Shown: positions 25,032-35,808 of the stretch, one piece after another
How the letters are laid out: each line of letters opens with the position of its first letter
Position numbering within the stretch: the first letter of the stretch is position 1
NCBI GenBank assembly: GCA_031278715.1
Contig: JAITJW010000013.1
Location: 1 to 44,053, forward strand
Direction: 5' to 3'
Source of the DNA: Treponema sp.
Lineage (GTDB): Bacteria; Spirochaetota; Spirochaetia; Treponematales; Breznakiellaceae
Length of the DNA: 44,053 bases
Notes under the pieces: model-generated
Database searches by the model: none
Told to the model about the DNA's origin: nothing
Seen by the model: the letters and a program-made list of their open reading frames with translations, nothing else
Made by a program: the position numbers and the translations under genes

Positions 25032-26471
25032 ATGGAATCATCAGGATGCGGTGAGTGTAAAAGCCTGTCTCAGGAAAACCGGCCTACAAGTCGTTTCAGC
25101 CCCCCGGACAAACAGGTGGACGGTCCGTCCATGATGGAAAGGTGGAACGGCAGGGCCCTGTTCCGCCTGATCTGGCCCCTGATTATCGAGCAGGTTCTGG
25201 CCGTTACCATGGGAATGGCGGACACGGTGATGATCAGTTCCGTGGGGGAGTACGCGATCTCCGCTGTTAACATTATTGACAACATCAACAACCTTTTGAT
25301 TATCGCCTTTGCCGCCCTTGCCACCGGCGGGGCGGTGGTAGTTAGCCAGTACATTGGCCGCGGGGATCACCGGAACGCCGGGGTAGCGGCCAAACAGCTT
25401 CTCTACGCGGTGTCGCTCATCTCCCTTGTGATCTGCCTGTTCGCCTTCTTTTTCCGCCGGCCTATAATCGGGCTCATCTACGGGAACGTGGACGCCAACG
25501 TGATGGAGGCCGCGAGTCTCTACATGCTGATTACCTGCCTCTCGTACCCCTTCCTGGCGATCTACAACGCGGATGCCGCCCTGTTCCGGGCGGTGGGGAA
25601 CTCCGGGGTTACGATGTGGATAGCCCTGTTGGTGAACGTGCTGAACATTGGGGGGAACGCGTTTTTTATCTTCGTTCTCCATTGGGGAGTTATGGGGGTG
25701 GGGCTTTCCACGCTGATAAGCCGGGTTCTGGCCGCGGTAATTACGCTGGTCCTCCTCTACCGGGGTCATGGCCGCCCAATCCGGCTGGAGGGGCTCTCCA
25801 CGATCCGTTTTATCCGTCCCATGTTCCGCAGCATCCTCAACGTGGGAATACCCAGCGGTCTGGAAAGTTCCATGTTCATGGTGGGCCGTCTTTTGACTCA
25901 GCGAATTTTTCCCATGTTCGGCCTTGCGGCTATGGCGGGGAACACGGTGGCCGGGGTGGTCAACTCGTTTTCCTATATGCCCGGTTCCGCCTGTGGTATG
26001 GCCCTGCTGACCATCGTGGGTCAGTGTGTGGGGGCCGGCGACTATGCCGCGGCCAAAAAGCACTGCGCGCAGCTCATGAAGATCACCTATGCCATTACCG
26101 CGGCCCTCAGTCTTTTTACCTGGATTTTCCGGGGCCCCCTTATCGGCATTTTTAATCTGAGCCCGGAGGCCTACGAGTTCGCCATCGTCTTTTTAGAACT
26201 CTACTGTATCTCGATGATCCTCGCCTGGCCTTTAAGTTTTGCCCTGCCCAACGCCCTGCGGGCCGCCGGGGATAGCCGCTACGTCATGTGGGTAGCCACC
26301 ATCTCCATGTGGACCGTCCGCGTAACCATGGCCTACATTTTCACCTTTGCCCTGAACCTGGGCCCCCTTGGGGTCTGGCTTGCTATGGGCTGTGATTTTA
26401 TCGTCCGGGGTAGTTTTTACCTGGGCCGCTGGATCCGGGGCCGCTGGCAGGAGAAACGCGTGATAGAGTAG
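25032..26471 (+). CDS. MATE-family efflux transporter
   Basis: 479 residues with about 12 membrane segments, the MATE pattern of two six-helix halves. Exports drugs or metabolites in exchange for Na+ or H+. Features: FRLIWPLIIEQVLAVTMGMA with the first-half signature, DTVMISSVGEYAISAVNI, then ALATGGAVVVSQYIGRGD, and in the second half GIPSGLESSMFMVGRLLTQ with NTVAGVVNSFSYMPG. The first ~33 residues are hydrophilic and unlike the family; an internal ATG ~34 codons in (MMERWNGRAL) is a likely true start. Substrate unknown. It is followed after 39 bases by the Rpn remnant. Confidence 0.9.
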   Translation: MESSGCGECKSLSQENRPTSRFSPPDKQVDGPSMMERWNGRALFRLIWPLIIEQVLAVTMGMADTVMISSVGEYAISAVNIIDNINNLLIIAFAALATGGAVVVSQYIGRGDHRNAGVAAKQLLYAVSLISLVICLFAFFFRRPIIGLIYGNVDANVMEAASLYMLITCLSYPFLAIYNADAALFRAVGNSGVTMWIALLVNVLNIGGNAFFIFVLHWGVMGVGLSTLISRVLAAVITLVLLYRGHGRPIRLEGLSTIRFIRPMFRSILNVGIPSGLESSMFMVGRLLTQRIFPMFGLAAMAGNTVAGVVNSFSYMPGSACGMALLTIVGQCVGAGDYAAAKKHCAQLMKITYAITAALSLFTWIFRGPLIGIFNLSPEAYEFAIVFLELYCISMILAWPLSFALPNALRAAGDSRYVMWVATISMWTVRVTMAYIFTFALNLGPLGVWLAMGCDFIVRGSFYLGRWIRGRWQEKRVIE

Positions 26472-26510
26472 CCGGCCCTGAAGCTCCTCAAAGCGGGCTT
26501 TTACACACCG

Positions 26511-27251
26511 TTGAAACCTGCGGCGAAAAACCATATTCTGGTAATACTGGTGGAACACCAGAGTACGATTAACCCGAACATGGCGCTGCGGTTTTTGATG
26601 TACATGGCGCGGGTATACGAGAAGATTCTGGGAGATAAAAACATTTACACGACAAAGGCGCTTGTTATACCGCGGCCTGAATTTTTTGTGCTGTACAATG
26701 GGCTTGCCCCCTATCCGGATGAGGATATACTGAGGCTGTCCGATTTATATGAAGATCCGGAGCAGCTGGGGCTGGAGAAGGCGCTGGTAGAGATGGAACT
26801 TGTGGTGGGGGTGATCAACATCAACCAGGGACGGAACGAGATAGTAAAGCGCTGCCGGGTGTTGGAGGGGTACAGTGACTTTATCGGGAAGGTAAGGGAC
26901 ATTGAAAGGGAAGGGATGAAACGGGAAAAGGCCTTAGAATCGGCGATAGTGTATTGCCGGGAGCATGACATATTGAAGGGGGTTTTGGAGGAACACGGGA
27001 CGGAGGTAATGAACATGTTGATGGCGGAATGGAAACAGGAAGATGCGTTAGCGGTACGGTACCGGGAGGGCCGGGAACTGGGCCACGAAGAAGGGTTGAA
27101 AACTGGACTTGAAAGAGGACTTGAGAAAGGACTTGAAAGAGGGCTTGAAAAAGTCGCCAGGAACGCCCTTGTGAAGGGGATGTCCCCGGACGCGATCAGT
27201 GAACTTACCGGGTTGGACAGTACAGCGATCAAAAGACTTGCGGGACAGTAG
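26511..27251 (+). pseudogene. Rpn-family nuclease/transposase-like protein, 5'-truncated
   Basis: 246 residues from a TTG with no ribosome binding site. Middle matches the Rpn (recombination-promoting nuclease, PD-(D/E)XK) family: ILVILVEHQSTINPNMALRF, where Glu and Gln belong to the catalytic motif, and FLMYMARVYEKIL. The usual N-terminal ~50-60 residues carrying the first catalytic acid are absent: the frame runs back only to the MATE stop. The C-terminus has the typical GLERGLEKGLERGLEK repeats and a small helical end. Such genes are common, multi-copy and short-lived in treponemes. It may be dead, or a shortened form using a new start. Confidence 0.75.
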
Positions 27252-27269
27252 TTTTCTGCCGGTGATCTA

Positions 27270-27298
27270 TAGACTTTTTGTACGGTCTCAAGTATAAT
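27270..27298 (+). promoter_or_regulatory. Likely sigma-70 promoter of the flagellar operon
   Basis: TAGACT (27270-27275) and a perfect TATAAT (27293-27298) are 17 bases apart, between the Rpn remnant and fliO. Transcription would start near 27305 and enter the hairpin at 27312. Spirochaete flagellar operons are known to use sigma-70-type promoters. Confidence 0.5.
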
Positions 27299-27311
27299 AA
27301 GACCATTGAGG

Positions 27312-27361
27312 CTGTTCCAAAACCGTGCGCGTGAGCGCACAGTAAATTAGTTTTGGAACAG
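27312..27361. repeat. Nested hairpin in the fliO leader
   Basis: Outer arms CTGTTCCAAAA (27312-27322) and TTTTGGAACAG (27351-27361); inner perfect stem GTGCGC (27325-27330) and GCGCAC (27335-27340) with loop GTGA. Related in core to the hairpin at 15410-15446. It lies 14 bases after the predicted -10 box, so it would be the 5' end of the operon transcript. Confidence 0.85.
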
Positions 27362-27463
27362 GCTTCATTAGGAGCGTTTCAAAAAAATCGACTGGGCTTT
27401 GAGTTGGTTTTTTTAGACCTGCCGTCCGTTCTGATATTCAGTTTGTACTTGGGAGGGGAAAAA

Positions 27464-28162
27464 CTGAAATTGCGAAATTCTTACCAGATTAAATTTCGTT
27501 TATTCTTTTACGCAGGGGTCTTGATTCTGCTTATTACGGGAAGGGGGGCTTCCGCGCTTTGGGCCCAGGAGACAGACGTTCCGCCCGATGCCGCCGCGAC
27601 TAACGGTGCGAACATTACCGCGGATCCGGGCGCGGACGAGCAGAATATCCGGCTGGGGGAGGAAGCCTCCGGCGGTTCCGTGGCTGTTCCGGGGCCGGTT
27701 TCCGGTTTTGCAATTTTCCGCGCCGTCCTGCTCCTTATCCTGGCTGCCGGCGCTATTTACGGCGTAGTGTACGCGGTAAAAAAGCTGTCCCGGCCGCGGG
27801 ATGCCAGGAGCCCCCACCTGCGGGTCCTGGCCAGCACCCAGCTGGGCCCGAACCGGTTTGTTCATGTTGTCGCTCTGGGGACCAGGGGCTGGCTTATAGG
27901 TTCCGGTGAGGGGGGAATTTCCCATATCGCCGATATAGAAGAGCAGGAGGCCCTTGACGCGCTGTTCCTGGAAGAATCCCGCAACGCTGCGTTTGGGCCG
28001 TCCGGCCGTCCGGGGGATTTTCGCTCCCTGCTCCGCCGCCTGGGCATCGGGTCCCCCGGTCCGGAGGCCGCGGGACCTGCCGGGGGAACCACGGGCCTGG
28101 ACGATGGGGAAACCCTGGCCGGGAACATCCGCCGCCGCCGCGACCGGCTTAGGGGGCTCTGA
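27464..28162 (+). CDS. fliO: Flagellar protein FliO/FliZ
   Basis: Start most likely CTG 27464 (GGAGG seven bases upstream) or TTG 27470; the frame is open further up without a ribosome binding site. About 230 residues. Signal/anchor sequence (FYAGVLILLITGRGASALWA), an acidic low-complexity periplasmic stretch, a membrane helix (FRAVLLLILAAGAIYGVVYA) and the FliO cytoplasmic motif LRVLASTQLGPNRFVHVVAL. Helps assemble the FliP ring of the flagellar export gate. Stop overlaps the fliP ATG by one base. C-terminal Gly/Pro-rich tail ends in RRRRDRLRGL. Confidence 0.85.
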   Translation: MKLRNSYQIKFRLFFYAGVLILLITGRGASALWAQETDVPPDAAATNGANITADPGADEQNIRLGEEASGGSVAVPGPVSGFAIFRAVLLLILAAGAIYGVVYAVKKLSRPRDARSPHLRVLASTQLGPNRFVHVVALGTRGWLIGSGEGGISHIADIEEQEALDALFLEESRNAAFGPSGRPGDFRSLLRRLGIGSPGPEAAGPAGGTTGLDDGETLAGNIRRRRDRLRGL

Positions 28163-28992
28163 TGAGGTATCCGCGTGTATTCCCGCCGGTTTTTGTTATA
28201 GTGTTGTTGTCGGCGGCCCTTCCCGCCCCTGCCCAGGAGAGTGGAAATGCGTTTCCGGACCTTTCCACGCAGGGGACTATGGATATTCCCACGCCGCCCC
28301 CCGCGCCGGTGGTTCCGTTTATCGATCTTTCGGTACGGAACCCCCAGAGCGGGCAGGAAGTGGCCTTTTCCCTGCAGCTCCTCCTGCTCCTGACGGTCCT
28401 CTCCCTGGCCCCCAGTATTATCATCCTGATGACCAGCTTCCTCAGAATCTCCATCGTGCTGGACTTTATCAAACGGGCCCTTTCCCTTCAGCAGGTGCCC
28501 CCCAGCCAGGTGCTGCTGGGAATCTCCCTCTTTATGACCATCTTTATCATGTGGAACCCCTTTCAAACCATCTACACCAACTCCATACGACCCCTGTCCC
28601 AGGGGGAAATTTCGGTCGAGGAGGCCTACCGGCAGGCGGAGGCCCCCTTGCGGCTTTTCATGTACCGCCAGATGGCCACCCAGCCGGACAATATCCGGCT
28701 TTTTATGGCCCTGCGGGGTCTGGACCAGCCGGATACGCTGGCCGATGTGCCGACCTATGTGCTGATACCGGCTTTTATCCTGAATGAGCTGACCGTGGCG
28801 TTTAAGATAGGGATACTGCTCTTTATTCCGTTTATCATTATCGACATGGTGGTAGCCAGCGCCCTTATGTCTATGGGTATGATCATGCTTCCTCCAGTGA
28901 TGATATCCATGCCCTTCAAACTTATCCTCTTCATCCTGATTGATGGCTGGGGACTGCTGACGGATCAAATGATCCGTTCATTTGTCGTGTAG
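28162..28992 (+). CDS. fliP: Flagellar export gate protein FliP
   Basis: 276 residues, normal length. Cleaved signal peptide (MRYPRVFPPVFVIVLLSAAL...PAPAQ), a short periplasmic segment, then the FliP core: TSFLRISIVLDFIKRALS, QVPPSQVLLGISLFMTIFIM, and the final pair of membrane helices around VASALMSMGMIMLPPVMISM. Five FliP form the core of the export gate with FliQ and FliR. Overlaps fliO by one base; fliQ follows after 9 bases. Confidence 0.97.
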   Translation: MRYPRVFPPVFVIVLLSAALPAPAQESGNAFPDLSTQGTMDIPTPPPAPVVPFIDLSVRNPQSGQEVAFSLQLLLLLTVLSLAPSIIILMTSFLRISIVLDFIKRALSLQQVPPSQVLLGISLFMTIFIMWNPFQTIYTNSIRPLSQGEISVEEAYRQAEAPLRLFMYRQMATQPDNIRLFMALRGLDQPDTLADVPTYVLIPAFILNELTVAFKIGILLFIPFIIIDMVVASALMSMGMIMLPPVMISMPFKLILFILIDGWGLLTDQMIRSFVV

Positions 28993-29001
28993 GGACCGCT
29001 C

Positions 29002-29271
29002 ATGAGTATCGGTCAGATTACCGCGTTGCTGCGGGGCGGGGTTTTGGAGGTGCTGTACCTGGCGGCGCCCATACTGTTTATCGCGCTTATCGTGGGACTC
29101 CTGGTGGCCATCCTCCAGGCGACTACGTCAATTCAGGAACAGACCCTTACCTTTGTGCCCAAGCTTGTCGCCATCCTCCTGGTACTGATGATTTTGGGGG
29201 GCTGGATGTTTTCCCACCTGGGGGATTACACGATCCAGCTGTTCAAAATGATCCCCAATATGGCGGGCTAA
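29002..29271 (+). CDS. fliQ: Flagellar export gate protein FliQ
   Basis: 89 residues, two membrane helices (APILFIALIVGLLVAILQA and LVAILLVLMILGGWM) with the conserved QATTSIQEQTL between them. Four FliQ pack around FliP in the export gate. fliR begins one base after its stop. Confidence 0.97.
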   Translation: MSIGQITALLRGGVLEVLYLAAPILFIALIVGLLVAILQATTSIQEQTLTFVPKLVAILLVLMILGGWMFSHLGDYTIQLFKMIPNMAG

Positions 29272-29272
29272 G

Positions 29273-30109
29273 ATGATTACCGAAGATGCACTGAACGAAA
29301 TGCTCCGCTGGGTCCCGGCTTTTCTTCTTATCGTGGTGCGGGCGCTGGCAATTGTTGAAACCGCGCCGCTCCTTTCCTCCGACGCGGTTCCCCAGGTGGC
29401 GAAAATCGCCCTGGCGGCCCTGGCGGCCTTTGCGGTGCTGCCCCAGGCGGAAAGCTACCCGCTGCTGAATGTTGATCCGGCCATCCTTAACCCCCAGGGA
29501 CTGTATTTTTTCGTACTCCTCATTGGCGAGGCGCTTATCGGTATAATCACCGGGTTTTTTATCACGATTATCTTCTCCGCCTTTTCCACGGCGGGTCAGT
29601 TTTTCTCCCTGCAAATGGGCTTTGGGGCTTCGGAGACTTTTGATCCCCTGTCCCAAATAGAAAATCCCCTGATGGGTCAGTACCTTAACCTGGTAGCTAT
29701 GCTGGTGTTCCTGGTTTCAGGCGGCTTTCAGGATCTTTTCCTGGGGGGCTTTTGGCGTTCCGTTCAGTCCATCAATGTTACTTCCCTTGCCGCGGGCCGT
29801 TCCGATGTGCTGGGTATGCTTTTAGCGGGCCTTTCCCGGCTTTTTCTGGACGCCATCATCATCTCCATGCCGATACTGGGGACCTTGTTTCTCAGCTCCC
29901 TGGCTACCGGGCTTATCTCCAAGGCCGCCCCCCAGATCAACATCCTCTCCGAGGGCTTTCCCATTTCCATCACCGTGGCCTTTCTCCTCATCTTTGCCTC
30001 CATGCCCTACATGACGGAGGCCTTTAGCCGGGTGATCGACGCGGGATTCAGGACCTTCCAGGACCTCCTGATCCTCGTGGGCGAACCTGTAGCGGAGATT
30101 CGGCCATGA
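29273..30109 (+). CDS. fliR: Flagellar export gate protein FliR
   Basis: 278 residues, about six membrane helices. FliR caps the FliP ring. Conserved parts: RALAIVETAPLLSSDAVPQV, GEALIGIITGFFITIIFSAF, FFSLQMGFGASETFDPLSQI and AAPQINILSEGFPISITVAF, the last being the strongest FliR signature. Its stop overlaps the flhB start (ATGA, 30106-30109). Confidence 0.97.
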   Translation: MITEDALNEMLRWVPAFLLIVVRALAIVETAPLLSSDAVPQVAKIALAALAAFAVLPQAESYPLLNVDPAILNPQGLYFFVLLIGEALIGIITGFFITIIFSAFSTAGQFFSLQMGFGASETFDPLSQIENPLMGQYLNLVAMLVFLVSGGFQDLFLGGFWRSVQSINVTSLAAGRSDVLGMLLAGLSRLFLDAIIISMPILGTLFLSSLATGLISKAAPQINILSEGFPISITVAFLLIFASMPYMTEAFSRVIDAGFRTFQDLLILVGEPVAEIRP

Positions 30110-31329
30110 TGGGCAGTGTGCCTGACCGCAGGCCCGCGGTTCTTTCTTCTGCGGTCCTTCCTTCCGCGGATCTTTTTTCATCGGATCTTTTTTCAGCGGA
30201 TGCCCTTTCCGCGGCCTTAGCCATAGACCTGCAGTGGTTTGCCGCGGAAGACGAGGGCCGTACCGAGGAGCCTTCGGAACTCAAGTTAAGGCGGGCACGG
30301 GAAGAAGAAGGCCGGGTTGCCAAGAGTCAGGAACTGATCGGCGCGCTGGGCCTCCTGTTCCCGGCCCTGATCCTGGCCTTCCTGGGACCTTCCATGCTCA
30401 GAACCAGCGTAGAGATGCTGCGTTTCTTTTTTACCCGTGCTGTTGAACTGGACCCGGTGGAGGACCGCCTGGTGGCGGGGCTTTTTTTCCGCTATTTTAT
30501 CCGTCTTGCCCTGCCCATCGTTACCGTGGGGATGCTCGCGGGGATACTGTCCAACCTGGTGCAGACAGGTTTTATATTTACGGTCAAACCCCTGGTCCCC
30601 AATTTTTCCAGGGTACTGCCCCACTTTGGCCAGTACTTCAAACGGACTCTTTTTTCCGCAGAGGGCCTGTTCAATTTTATTAAGTCCATCCTCAAAATGG
30701 CCATCATCGGTACGGTGGCCTTTCTCCTTATCCGCTCGGAACTGGATCGCCTTGTCAACCTGCAGACTGTAAGCCTGTGGACGGGGATCACGACCATCGC
30801 TTCCCTGGCGATACGGATGCTGATCATCAGCGCCCTGTTGCTGCTCATCCTCTCCGTGCCGGACTACATGTTCCGGCGCTGGCGGCATCGTGAAGACCTG
30901 CGGATGAGCCGCGAAGAGGTAAAAGAGGAACGGCGGCAGTACGAGGGGGACCCCTATGTACGATCCCGGATCCGCGCCCGAATGCGGCAGATGATGAGCC
31001 AGAACATGGCCGCCAATGTCGCCAGGGCGGATGTGGTGATTACCAACCCGACCCACTTCGCGGTGGCCCTGGAGTACCACCGGTCCATGCAGGCGCCCCT
31101 GGTTACCGCCAGGGGGGAGGACGAGGCGGCCCTGTTGATCCGCCGCATCGCGCGGGACAAGGGGGTGCCGGTGGTGGAAAACCGCCCCCTGGCCCGGGCC
31201 CTCTACGCGGAAACCGATGTCGGAGATTTTGTTCCCGTTGCCTATTGGCGGATCGTGGCTACTATTTTGAGCAAGGTCATGAGCGTCAACGAGGCGCGGC
31301 GCCGCAGGGAAGAGGCCCTGCGGGCGTAA
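30106..31329 (+). CDS. flhB: Flagellar export switch protein FlhB with repeat-expanded N-terminus
   Basis: 407 residues against ~355-380 usually. The family-like start is IDLQWFAAEDEGRTEEP (~40-56); before it stands an extra ~38 residues made of AVLSS/ADLFS-type pentapeptides encoded by a 15-bp repeat. Four membrane helices follow, then the cytosolic domain with the autocleavage site NPTH at residues 314-317 (ADVVITNPTHFAVALEY), which sets substrate specificity from rod/hook to filament. Translationally coupled to fliR by the ATGA overlap. The extension should lie in the cytoplasm before the first helix; it may be tolerated rather than useful. Confidence 0.96.
   Translation: MMGSVPDRRPAVLSSAVLPSADLFSSDLFSADALSAALAIDLQWFAAEDEGRTEEPSELKLRRAREEEGRVAKSQELIGALGLLFPALILAFLGPSMLRTSVEMLRFFFTRAVELDPVEDRLVAGLFFRYFIRLALPIVTVGMLAGILSNLVQTGFIFTVKPLVPNFSRVLPHFGQYFKRTLFSAEGLFNFIKSILKMAIIGTVAFLLIRSELDRLVNLQTVSLWTGITTIASLAIRMLIISALLLLILSVPDYMFRRWRHREDLRMSREEVKEERRQYEGDPYVRSRIRARMRQMMSQNMAANVARADVVITNPTHFAVALEYHRSMQAPLVTARGEDEAALLIRRIARDKGVPVVENRPLARALYAETDVGDFVPVAYWRIVATILSKVMSVNEARRRREEALRA
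30136..30210. repeat. 15-bp minisatellite in the flhB 5' end
   Basis: Five contiguous 15-bp units: 30136-30150, 30151-30165, 30166-30180, 30181-30195, 30196-30210. All share GCGG/TCGG starts and T-rich middles; units 3 and 4 differ by one base. In frame, each encodes a pentapeptide of AVLPS/ADLFS type. Confidence 0.96.
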
Positions 31330-31344
31330 TGGAGGCGATAAGCT

Positions 31345-33471
31345 ATGTCTGATCACGTTAGAGCTGTTGACGGTCCTGATACCAAAAGCAGGGGGAATCC
31401 CTTCGGCAGCATACAGGAATTCCTGCTCCCCCTGTTCGTCATAACCATCATCGTTATGATCGTGATCCCCCTGCCCACGGTACTGCTGGATACCCTGATG
31501 GCCCTCAACCTGATCTTCTCCCTTCTGGTACTTCTTATCGTGCTGTACACGCGCAAGGCGGTGGATTTTAACCTCTTTCCCACGGTGCTGCTCATCGTTA
31601 CGGTCTTCGGGCTGGCCCTTAACGTATCCTCCACCCGGCTTATCCTTACCCAGGGGGCCCGGTTTAACGGCCGGATGATCCGGGCCTTCTCCTCGTTTGT
31701 CGTAGGCTCCGGGGGAACCGAGGGCATGGTTGTGGGCTTTGTCATTTTTATCGTGATCATCGCGGTTCAGGCGGTGGTGATCACCAAGGGGGCTACCCGT
31801 GTTTCCGAGGTGGCGGCCCGGTTCCAGTTAGACGGCATGCCCCAGAAGCAGATGTCCATAGACGCGGAATTCAACTCCGGCAGCATCACCGAGGAGGAGG
31901 CCCAGGCCCGTAAACGGGAACTTGACCTGGAACTTTCGTTCTACGGTTCTATGGACGGGGCCAGCAAATTTATATCCGGCAACGTGAAGGTGGGGATCTT
32001 CATTACCGTGGTAAACATCCTGGGCGGGATCATCATCGGTACCCTGCTCCACGGGGAACCGATAGTGACGGCCCTGAGTAACTACATCTCATTTTCCGTA
32101 GGGGACGGTCTTTTGAGCCAGCTCCCCTCCCTCCTGGTCTCCATCGCTATGGGTATCGTGGTTACGCGGGCCGCGGCCCCCGGGGACCTGGGGGAACAGG
32201 TTGCCATACAGTTCTCGCGGGACGCCAAGGTCTACTGGGTGGCCACAGTACTCCTGTTGTTGCTTGCCCTGCTTCCCGGCTTTCCCTGGTACGTGCTTGT
32301 ACCCCTGGCGGTTCTGGTGGGCTTCTACGCTTACCACATTGGCCGCGTCAAGCGGCGCAAGGCCGGCTTTGACCAGATGATGTCCAAGTCCCAGGAGAAG
32401 GGAAAACACCGGGACGAAGGGGAAATGTCGCTCGTCGTACCCCTTGACGCCCTGTCCCTGGAACTGGGTTACGGCCTTATCCCGCTGGTTGACAAGGACA
32501 AAGGGGCGGAACTGGTAGAACGGCTCCAGGGAGTACGCCGTCAGTCCGGTCTGGAACTGGGCCTGGTTATCCCCAAGTTCAGGATCATCGACAACATCAT
32601 GCTGGAACCTTCGGAATACTGTTTCAAGATCAAAGGAGTGGACGTGGGCCGGGGGAAGATACGCATCGGCTATTACCTCTGTATTAAGTCCGGCCAGGTA
32701 ACCGAAGAGATCCGCGGGGAGGAAACCCTGGACCCGGCCTTCGGCCTTCCCAGCGTCTGGGTGGGGGAGGACCGGCGGGACGAAGCTGAGCGGGCGGGCT
32801 ATACGGTGGTGGATCCTCCGTCGATTATCGCCACCCATTTAACCGAGATTATCAAACGCCATGCCCAGGATATTCTGGGCCGTCAGGAGATCCAGGCGAT
32901 TCTGGATACCCTTAAAAAAGAGTACTCCGCGGTGGTCGAAGAAACCCAAAAAACGGCTAGCCTGGGGGATATTCAAAAAGTGTTTCAGGGACTGTTGCGG
33001 GAGCGGGTTTCCATCCGCAACACGGTTTCCATTCTGGAGGCCATTGCCGATTACGCTCCGGTGTCCCGGGACACCGGATTCCTCATCGAAAAGGCCCGGC
33101 AGGCCCTGGCCATGCAGATATGCCACCAGTACGCCGATGAAAACCGCGTGCTAAGGGTATTAACGCTGGATCGCGCGCTGGAACAGAAGATCATCGACAG
33201 CCAGCTCAAGACAAGCTCCGGCCGCGTCAGTGGCCTGGATCCCCAGACCCGCGCGCTCTGGCTGCACGCGCTTTCCCGCTCCGTAACGCTGGTCCAGGAA
33301 AAAGGCTGGCCCGCGGTGATCTGCTGCTCAGAGGAAGCCAGGGCCCTGGTAAAATCTTCTACGGAACGGGAAATCCCGGATCTTGTGGTGCTTTCAATTG
33401 CCGAAATTGCCCAGGGTATAAGCCTTGAGTCGGTGGGGCTTATCAAACTGGAAAATCAGGCGGCGGCATAG
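31345..33471 (+). CDS. flhA: Flagellar export protein FlhA
   Basis: 708 residues. Eight N-terminal membrane helices (from IQEFLLPLFVITIIVMIVI) with the conserved FHIPEP signature region TEGMVVGFVIFIVI and ARFQLDGMPQKQMSIDAEFN, then the large cytosolic ring domain (VPLDALSLELGYGLIPLVDK onward) that docks chaperone-substrate complexes. FlhA forms the nonameric ring that couples proton flow to export. GGAGGCGATAAGCT precedes the ATG, 15 bases after flhB. Confidence 0.97.
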   Translation: MSDHVRAVDGPDTKSRGNPFGSIQEFLLPLFVITIIVMIVIPLPTVLLDTLMALNLIFSLLVLLIVLYTRKAVDFNLFPTVLLIVTVFGLALNVSSTRLILTQGARFNGRMIRAFSSFVVGSGGTEGMVVGFVIFIVIIAVQAVVITKGATRVSEVAARFQLDGMPQKQMSIDAEFNSGSITEEEAQARKRELDLELSFYGSMDGASKFISGNVKVGIFITVVNILGGIIIGTLLHGEPIVTALSNYISFSVGDGLLSQLPSLLVSIAMGIVVTRAAAPGDLGEQVAIQFSRDAKVYWVATVLLLLLALLPGFPWYVLVPLAVLVGFYAYHIGRVKRRKAGFDQMMSKSQEKGKHRDEGEMSLVVPLDALSLELGYGLIPLVDKDKGAELVERLQGVRRQSGLELGLVIPKFRIIDNIMLEPSEYCFKIKGVDVGRGKIRIGYYLCIKSGQVTEEIRGEETLDPAFGLPSVWVGEDRRDEAERAGYTVVDPPSIIATHLTEIIKRHAQDILGRQEIQAILDTLKKEYSAVVEETQKTASLGDIQKVFQGLLRERVSIRNTVSILEAIADYAPVSRDTGFLIEKARQALAMQICHQYADENRVLRVLTLDRALEQKIIDSQLKTSSGRVSGLDPQTRALWLHALSRSVTLVQEKGWPAVICCSEEARALVKSSTEREIPDLVVLSIAEIAQGISLESVGLIKLENQAAA

Positions 33472-33480
33472 GGGGAAATC

Positions 33481-34830
33481 ATGGTACAATTTACCGAACA
33501 GGCCTGCGACTGGGAAGAATGTCTGGACAAGATACGGACGCATTACGGTGAGCATTTCACGATACTCAGCCGTAAGACCATCAGGATGGGGGGGATCTTT
33601 GGTTTTTTTACACGGGAAGGCATCGAAGTAACGGGCTATGTCCCCAACCTCTACGAAAAAACTTATCCCGGGCCGGTAACGCTTCAGGGGCTGTCCGGCG
33701 CGGGTTCCGCTGCTCGTCCTCCGTTTTCCGCCGGGCTTTCCGGCCCGGTTACGGGAAGTTCCACAACGCTGTCCCGCGAACCAGGTTTACCGCGTGAAAC
33801 GGGCGTACGGGACAGTTCACGGGCTGAAGCGCAGGAACCCCTGGCCTTTGAGGAGGCCAAACGCCGGGTCCTGGCGGCCGCCGGCAAAGATCTAACCATG
33901 CAGCAGGTCCTGTCCACCGTTCAGGAGATCAAAGACAAGATCGGCCAGACCGTTCCGGCGTCTCAGGAGGAACACCCTAACCTCCAACGGCTCCGGGATT
34001 ATCTTATCCTTAACGACTTTTCCCCCGGCTACCAGGAAACGATCCTTGCACGGATTAAAAAAGAGTGTTCTCTGGAGACCCTGGAAGATTTCCAGGCCCT
34101 CCAGGACGCGGCGCTGGAGTTGATCGGGGAAAGCATCAGCATCTTCGAGGAAAAGCCTCCCCCCCGGCTGCCGCGGATCATGATCCTGGTGGGCCCCACC
34201 GGCGTGGGTAAAACCACCACCGTCGCCAAACTGGCGGCCGTGTACGCGCTGCCCGAGACGGAGACACGGCCCCTGTCGGTACGGCTGATCACCATCGATT
34301 CCCTGCGCATCGGCGCCCGGACCCAGATTGAGACCTACGGGGAGATTATGTCAATCCCGGTGGCCTATGTGAATAACCAGCAGGAACTCCGGCGGGTTAT
34401 CGCCCTGTGCGGCGAGGATGTGGACCTTGTTCTTATCGACACCTTCGGCAAGAGCCCCCGGGACGCGGCCAAGCTGGGGGAGATGAAGTATATCCTGGAC
34501 GCCTGCGGCAGCAGGGCGGAAACCCACCTGGTGTTGACGGCGGCTACCAAGACCAGCGATCTTAACGATATTATGAGGCAGTTTGAGCCCTTTGCGTACC
34601 GCTCAGTGATCATCACCAAGCTGGATGAAACCGTCAAAATCGGAAACGTTATCAGCGCCCTGGCGGAAAAAGGAAAATCCATCTCGTATATCACCGACGG
34701 ACAGACCGTCCCTACCGATATTCAAAAGGCTGCGGTTGTGGATCTTTTGCTTAACCTGGATGGATTCCAGGTAAACCGGCGGAAAATGGAGAACCGTTTT
34801 CCTGCCGGTAACCAGAAAAAGTTTGGATGA
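33481..34830 (+). CDS. flhF: Flagellar GTPase FlhF
   Basis: 449 residues, SRP-type GTPase that sets flagellar position and number, in spirochaetes probably the subpolar basal bodies. N-terminal basic domain (VQFTEQACDWEECLDKI, then SRKTIRMGGIFGFFTREG), a low-complexity Ser/Gly/Ala linker (~75-125), then NG domain with P-loop VGPTGVGKTTTVAKLAA, DSLRIGARTQIETYGEI, LIDTFGKSPRD and TKLDETVKIGNV. AGGGGGAAATC before the ATG. Followed by its usual partner flhG. Confidence 0.96.
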   Translation: MVQFTEQACDWEECLDKIRTHYGEHFTILSRKTIRMGGIFGFFTREGIEVTGYVPNLYEKTYPGPVTLQGLSGAGSAARPPFSAGLSGPVTGSSTTLSREPGLPRETGVRDSSRAEAQEPLAFEEAKRRVLAAAGKDLTMQQVLSTVQEIKDKIGQTVPASQEEHPNLQRLRDYLILNDFSPGYQETILARIKKECSLETLEDFQALQDAALELIGESISIFEEKPPPRLPRIMILVGPTGVGKTTTVAKLAAVYALPETETRPLSVRLITIDSLRIGARTQIETYGEIMSIPVAYVNNQQELRRVIALCGEDVDLVLIDTFGKSPRDAAKLGEMKYILDACGSRAETHLVLTAATKTSDLNDIMRQFEPFAYRSVIITKLDETVKIGNVISALAEKGKSISYITDGQTVPTDIQKAAVVDLLLNLDGFQVNRRKMENRFPAGNQKKFG

Positions 34831-34842
34831 GGTGTGTAACAC

Positions 34843-35808
34843 ATGGAAGATCAGGCAGAACGATTAAGGGAAATTGTACGTCAACGGGGACCGGCCGGTT
34901 TTGTTGGGGGCGTTACCCCCTCCGGGGGACCCTTTGCCGCCGTTACAGGCCCGGTAGAAAACGGCAAACCGGCCGGGACGGGGAGGAACCACCGCTCACG
35001 GGAGGGAAAGGCCCGGATCATCACCATTACCTCCGGCAAGGGGGGAGTGGGCAAGACCAACCTTTCGGTGAACCTTGCCCTGGCCTACGCCAGGCTGGGG
35101 AAAAAAGTGGTGGTTATGGACGCTGACCTGGGGCTGGCCAATGTAAACGTGATCCTCGACGTGATCCCCAAATACAACCTGTACCACGTGATCCGAAAAC
35201 AGAAGACCATGCGGGATATTCTGGTGGAAACCGATTACGGCATCTCCATTGTCCCCGGGGCCTCCGGTTTTTCCCAAATTGCCAACATGAACGACGATGA
35301 ACGGCAGAATTTTATCAATGAACTGGAAACCCTCTCCGTTGCCGATATTATTATTATTGATACCAGCGCCGGTGTATCCAGTAACGTGATGGATTTTATC
35401 GCCGCCGCCGACGACGCGGTTATCGTTACCACGCCGGAACCTACGGCCATTACCGACGCCTATGGGATCATAAAAATTATCGCCACCGAATACGAAACCC
35501 CGAACATGGGGCTTAAACTGGTGGTGAACCGCGTAAAAAGCGTTGCGGAGGCAAAAAAAGTCGCCGACAGGATGATCAATATCGCCGGCCAGTTCCTTAA
35601 CCTGAAGGTGGATTATTTGGGTTTTGTCTATGATGATGTGATGGTTTCCAACGCGGTGTTACGGCAGCGGCCCTTTATGGTGATCGATCCCAAGTGCAAG
35701 GCAAGCCTCTGCGTACAGCACATTGTGGACCGCATGGAAAAAAGCGATCACAGGGCCTCCGGGGGCTTTGGAGCCATGCTGAACCGGCTTTTTGGAAAAA
35801 AGAACTAA
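34843..35808 (+). CDS. flhG: Flagellar number regulator FlhG/FleN (MinD-like ATPase)
   Basis: 321 residues. N-terminal segment QAERLREIVRQRG resembles the DQAxxLR motif that stimulates FlhF GTPase. The ParA/MinD fold follows: deviant Walker A TSGKGGVGKTNLSVNLALA, DADLGLANVNVILD, IIIDTSAGVSSNVMDF and VVNRVKS. C-terminal amphipathic helix (GAMLNRLFGKKN) for membrane contact. GAGGTG lies upstream of the ATG, 12 bases after flhF. A Gly/Pro-rich stretch (~15-50) lengthens the linker. Confidence 0.95.
   Translation: MEDQAERLREIVRQRGPAGFVGGVTPSGGPFAAVTGPVENGKPAGTGRNHRSREGKARIITITSGKGGVGKTNLSVNLALAYARLGKKVVVMDADLGLANVNVILDVIPKYNLYHVIRKQKTMRDILVETDYGISIVPGASGFSQIANMNDDERQNFINELETLSVADIIIIDTSAGVSSNVMDFIAAADDAVIVTTPEPTAITDAYGIIKIIATEYETPNMGLKLVVNRVKSVAEAKKVADRMINIAGQFLNLKVDYLGFVYDDVMVSNAVLRQRPFMVIDPKCKASLCVQHIVDRMEKSDHRASGGFGAMLNRLFGKKN

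Follow-up and report, generated by a model that had tools for sequence, protein, structure and literature searches.

The flagellar export genes from fliO onwards probably form a transcription unit of their own in this termite-gut-type Treponema, the product of an old break between fliY and fliO, with a putative promoter, a late miniature inverted-repeat element (MITE) and a leader from which FliO would start at a CTG codon. The history of the locus is thus corrected to an old break and a late MITE. The CTG-start leader in front of fliO is more unusual than the operon break itself. The window, meaning the whole stretch of DNA analysed, is contig C146 (44,053 bp) of an 84%-complete assembly in 213 contigs (genome G000). 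The features of the locus are collected in Table 1.

Table 1. Features around the fliO junction, in window coordinates.
Feature	Position	Strand	Basis or remark
MATE-family efflux gene	25032..26471	+	PF01554, E 1.9e-48; outside the flagellar unit
Rpn / Transposase_31 remnant	26511..27251	+	Without the N-terminal ~70 residues; homology from about 26538
Predicted sigma-70-type promoter of the fliO operon, TAGACT-N17-TATAAT	27270..27298	+	Motif common to 5/6 genus loci
Target-site duplication CATT, left	27304..27307	+	Flank comparison
Miniature inverted-repeat element, 58 bp (nested hairpin)	27308..27365	+	Arms, copies, target-site duplication, folding
Target-site duplication CATT, right	27366..27369	+	Flank comparison
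Conserved fliO leader CAGTTTGTACTTGGGAGGGGAAAAACTG, candidate stem-loop	27439..27466	+	Leader comparisons
Shine-Dalgarno GGGAGGGG	27451..27458	+	Leader comparisons
fliO from likely CTG start, 232 aa, signal-peptide-like N-terminus	27464..28162	+	CTG in 94/100 leaders; PF04347
fliP, fliQ, fliR, flhB, flhA, flhF, flhG-like	28162..35808	+	Rest of the export unit; ORF list and profile matches

Profile matches give the gene order MatE, Rpn ORF, FliO, FliP, FliQ, FliR, FlhB, FlhA, FlhF, an FlhG-like protein, a sigma factor and FapA; an AsnS-like synthetase is also found upstream of the fliO block, together with the MATE pump and the C-terminal part of the Rpn protein. FliO was identified by its match to PF04347 (40.5 bits, cut-off 22) and its placement before fliP. 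All the parts that the initial annotation had described upstream of fliO are present: the MATE pump, the Rpn gene cut short at its 5' end, the TAGACT-N17-TATAAT motif and the nested hairpin, which is a strong one. A search of the incomplete G000 assembly returned no match for FliM or for any part of the flgD-fliY operon; FliG and the export genes are present there.

Relatives carry a single run flgD-flgE-motA-motB-fliL-fliM-fliY-fliO with fliY just before fliO, the order given for Treponema in the initial annotation. Among 80 named loci, which were collected through FliP so that joints to the left of fliY are under-sampled where fliY is lost, fliY lies upstream in 49 (six of them with 1.4–5.6 kb between fliY and fliO), is absent in 18 with more than 2.2 kb of sequence, is probably absent in 4 and is unreadable in 9. 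With the window added, 63 loci are informative for the fliY-fliO joint: the two genes are adjacent in 43, and the joint is broken in 20, of which 6 have inserts of more than 700 nt and 14 have no fliY. The export joints hold, with breaks at fliP-fliQ in 1/80, fliQ-fliR in 2/77 and fliR-flhB in 1/72, and none at flhB-flhA (0/67), flhA-flhF (0/61) or flhF-flhG (0/58). The repeated breakage of one joint of a long flagellar operon while these hold amounts to a natural experiment on operon boundaries. Seven apparent inserts between fliM and fliY were left unused, since partial FliY matches account for some or all of them. Separately, one locus (L250) has a real-looking insert between fliL and fliM, and another (L276) has fliL and fliY with no fliM match between them.

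In a tree of 82 loci built from five export proteins, the genus is monophyletic (support 0.999) as a clade of six, with intact loci (L247/L324) as its sisters (0.995). The fliY-fliO break requires six changes on this tree by parsimony, and shuffled labels require at least 16. The comparison points to at least six independent breaks, one in the genus and at least five more in related termite-gut treponemes. The left neighbours of fliO vary by lineage, with GH43 in G003/L287, GH2 in G006 and others elsewhere. In G001, a convergent oxidoreductase-like frame comes after fliY. The break is common to the genus members that can be read, and these comparisons show the ancestral fliL-fliM-fliY-fliO run to have been broken at fliY-fliO within the genus.

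Most of the assemblies are fragmented metagenome-assembled genomes, and it is conceivable that the window is an assembly chimera in which fliY truly precedes fliO and the contig jumps from the repeat-bearing MATE-Rpn region to fliO. FliM was found in all six other genus genomes; five of these also yielded fliO, each time on a different contig from FliM. In all six the fliY contig ends inside fliY or within 0.8 kb after it; because fliY contigs end at or near fliY, repeats at this joint could mislead an assembler, and such repeats occur at the joint in several genomes. In G004, the fliY contig (end of L167) and the fliO contig (start of L087) share exactly 119 nt, the k given in the public contig names, within a MITE-like inverted repeat. 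They look like a linked pair broken by the assembler, and fliY, MITE and fliO may still be joined in that genome. Against a chimera, suffix-prefix overlaps number zero in the other seven contig pairs tested, the Rpn stretch is single-copy in the G000 assembly and would be a poor place for a false join, and G003 and G006 independently have other neighbours to the left of fliO. We regard a chimera as improbable.

The nested hairpin is a MITE belonging to a multicopy family of this genome, as judged from sequence comparison. Its 15-nt arms (27309–27323 and 27350–27364) fold at -31.8 kcal/mol (z -6.75), with 0 of 200 shuffles as low. The hairpin sequence occurs at 26 BLAST places in the G000 genome, the window's own included, and its arm has 27 exact 14-mer matches there (reversed control 0), so that the hairpin is a dispersed repeat and not a product of chance. 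The element has 16-nt inverted ends of the type GAGGCTGTTCCAAAAC; solitary copies measure 58–59 bp and are bordered by identical 4-bp flanks in 8 of 13 cases. Bacterial MITEs and IS-derived miniature elements are noncoding and multicopy, with terminal inverted repeats and short target duplications. The present family shares these properties and differs in that composite forms also occur, of about 139–157 bp and built from two inverted-repeat units (L016, L020, L022, L024). Two other identities for the hairpin were rejected. As a terminator it fails, with 0 terminator-like sites in 26400–27600 and no T run behind the hairpin; its dispersed copies and a target duplication of its own speak against a relic of the fliY 3' flank. 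In another lineage (L268), the fliO leader at 603–639 is immediately preceded by an inverted repeat whose ends resemble those of a MITE.

The Rpn ORF is incomplete. It matches PF04754 at profile positions 71–147 of 203 only, short of a complete domain, and its residues 7–10 align at residues 70–78 of four relatives of 296–313 aa each, in keeping with 5' truncation; the other three of the seven relatives are L177, where the alignment falls at residue 44 of 271, and two short proteins. A 12-bp tandem repeat (three overlapping 24-nt copies) is present near the end of the remnant at 27105–27152. Further upstream, the asnS-MATE block is 80–90% identical in five genus genomes and is followed there by different sequence. 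Since the sequence 3' of the block differs in each (L332, L333, L334, L338, L339), gene order appears to be widely shuffled here. The block in G002 is 90% identical to that of the window and then gives way to other sequence.

The presence of the MITE and the Rpn remnant at the breakpoint might suggest that one of them broke the operon in this lineage. G004 has a MITE-like repeat after fliY and before fliO, and a second, separate Rpn-like C-terminus, seen by eye, lies directly upstream of fliO at a contig start in G028 (L255/L110). However, G001, G003 and G006 have the same break and carry neither element at fliO; since the break is common to the split genus members, neither the Rpn remnant nor the MITE caused it. 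The flanks of the MITE are a simple 4-bp duplication, so the element inserted without rearrangement. Among the five genomes compared, both elements are confined to this lineage; in G002, which the tree places nearest, the site is free of a MITE and the fliO contig gives no Rpn match, and the two therefore look like later arrivals. As the cause of the break for this copy, the MITE and Rpn are largely refuted, and we attach little probability to this explanation; older repeats may have played a part in the first break. In the reading that we prefer, of an old break with its own promoter, the DNA to the left of the promoter would later have become MATE and Rpn remnant in this lineage, and the 58-bp MITE would have inserted between promoter and ribosome-binding site, in the presumed 5' untranslated region. 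The repeats at this locus are an ordinary product of a fluid genome, and the locus is informative as one instance of an operon break that recurs.

The putative promoter has hexamers TAGACT at 27270–27275 and TATAAT at 27293–27298, with a spacing of 17 nt. It scores 10 of 12 matches and is the best among 4 sites found, against 1.1 expected by shuffling. The pattern TRGACTTTTT-N13-TATNNT occurs once per locus, 60–169 nt upstream of the leader, in G000, G001, G002, G003 and G006. A motif search was used here in place of an upstream multiple alignment, which put the G002 and G003 promoters out of register. The pattern has no other occurrence in 158,800 nt (both strands) of six genus sequences, and has 12 matches in 4.9 million nt of all collected loci, duplicates of the genus ones included. 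G004, whose fliY and fliO look as if still linked, lacks it. The two hexamers, at a spacing within 16–18 nt and conserved among relatives, thus have the character of a sigma-70 promoter, which split genus members appear to hold in common before fliO. Transcripts would begin near 27305 and pass through the MITE hairpin.

The export half accordingly seems, from the distribution of the motif, to have gained its predicted promoter before the MITE and Rpn arrived. The initial annotation had taken the promoter as new-looking; a fresh creation at this junction is rejected for this locus, the same motif standing before fliO in five split genus members. Its proposal that the operon split and the export half then acquired a promoter holds at the level of the genus, with timing and agents wrong. 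Promoter, Rpn and hairpin do not represent one recent event, and fliO stands at an operon start without these repeats in G003 and G006, an arrangement that the annotation had named as contradicting its reading. Elsewhere in the family, 18 of the 72 loci scored, intact as well as broken ones, have the -10 box of their best promoter-like site 9–11 nt upstream of the leader. Sites with p ≤ 0.05 occur in 10/18 split versus 9/44 intact loci (Fisher p 0.013, kinship uncorrected). In the same scan that threshold was reached by just one of the six genus loci. The window locus itself came out at p = 1.00, as its -35 box lay outside the 150 nt scanned. The fliY-fliO joint may tolerate breaks because the genes to its right have, or readily gain, a promoter near the leader; we hold this more weakly.

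The start of fliO in the ORF list (TTG at 27353) falls inside the MITE, and the likely start, judged by leader comparison, is the CTG at 27464; ribosomes would load at the strong Shine-Dalgarno GGGAGGGG. The ORFs of fliP, fliQ, fliR, flhB, flhA and flhF in the window start with ATG. The leader is identical in all six fliO-bearing genus genomes, once per genome, and G033 shares 30 of 30 leader nt though its FliO is only 37% identical. Of 195 family genomes, 74 contain a looser form of the leader pattern, 71 of them as a single copy and 3 as two copies (reversed control 0). A GGG[AG]GGG Shine-Dalgarno with open frame was found in 100 of 118 loci examined and not in the other 18; these leader counts include some species twice, as unnamed and named records. 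The start codons in the 100 leaders are CTG in 94, TTG in 5, ATT in 1 and ATG in 0, the lone ATT (L105) being an artefact of the offset limit, with a CTG at offset 3 past its Shine-Dalgarno. FliO proteins read from CTG mostly begin with MK or MN and by eye have a signal-peptide-like N-terminus.

An ordinary ATG, GTG or TTG start, with the CTG a coincidence of a conserved ribosome-binding region, appears very unlikely. Such codons do occur in frame at -7 and -5 in 27 of 86 distinct leaders and at -5 in 16 more, and TTG occupies the start position in 5 leaders. Those at -7 and -5 nevertheless fall before or in the Shine-Dalgarno, and 35 of the 86 leaders have no upstream ATG, GTG or TTG before a stop. 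The next such codon downstream lies anywhere from codon 2 to codon 56, and none was found in 6. Moreover, the leader length shifts by one base between lineages, moving the upstream frame, which is not conserved; no start other than the CTG fits. Gene finders rarely call CTG starts, and for this reason the leader counts suggest that treponeme annotations systematically give fliO a wrong start or overlook it. A literature search on the CTG start codon in Treponema found no report, which does not prove that none has been published.

If CAGTT paired with AACTG within the leader, the CTG would be buried. Of 86 distinct leaders, 72 can form a stem of 6 bp or more over the CTG; shuffling the 5' arms gives an expectation of 25.3 and a highest count of 34 (kinship uncorrected). 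The two sides lengthen and shorten in step (12 + 6 nt in 38 leaders, 11 + 5 in 19, few others). The 86 distinct CTG leaders gave 81 distinct after trimming, of which 62 entered a pair count; those left out mostly lacked the CAGTT arm or were near-duplicates, so that the 99.3% of cells that pair refers to a chosen set, and yet this set has 0 two-sided changes and hence no covariation. When a longer stretch of the window is folded, a structure other than the proposed stem results, and Rfam returned no family over its gathering score in window positions 26450–28200. The predicted stem burying the CTG is plausible but unproven. With the Shine-Dalgarno in the loop and the CTG in the stem, FliO output might be low or regulated, a weaker element of the preferred reading.

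More broadly, and as a tentative, rather doubtful idea, the leader could be a fliO-specific translation-control element across this spirochaete family. A short stem-loop lying at the 5' end of the mRNA or close to it would expose the Shine-Dalgarno and bury the CUG, metering assembly of the export gate, perhaps through CsrA or another partner; being self-contained and promoter-proximal, the leader would let the export operon be cut loose and moved repeatedly. The conserved leader is a directly testable candidate for control of export-gate assembly and merits a test at the bench.

The fla operon of T. denticola, listed as flgE-motA-motB-fliL-fliM-fliY-fliP (PMC6930189), resembles the left-half gene order of the intact relatives, whereas the export half is detached in the window genome. 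That list gives fliP directly after fliY with no fliO, which would fit a fliO overlooked owing to its CTG start. Atypical or misannotated fliO starts have precedents in the 'putative tandem starts' of Salmonella fliO (Schoenhals 1998, as referenced in PMC2947984) and in start-codon misassignment of FliO (PMC12403147). The sections of the latter that we draw on do not describe a conserved CTG start within a conserved leader, and neither 'Treponema' nor 'spirochet' occurs in its main text. In T. denticola, CsrA controls flagellin mRNAs at the Shine-Dalgarno (PMC9481697). The likeness lies in a flagellar mRNA whose GGA-rich Shine-Dalgarno may sit in a loop; the difference is that fliO is not among the targets named in the portion of that report used here. 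By eye, GGA motifs can be seen in the fliO leader.
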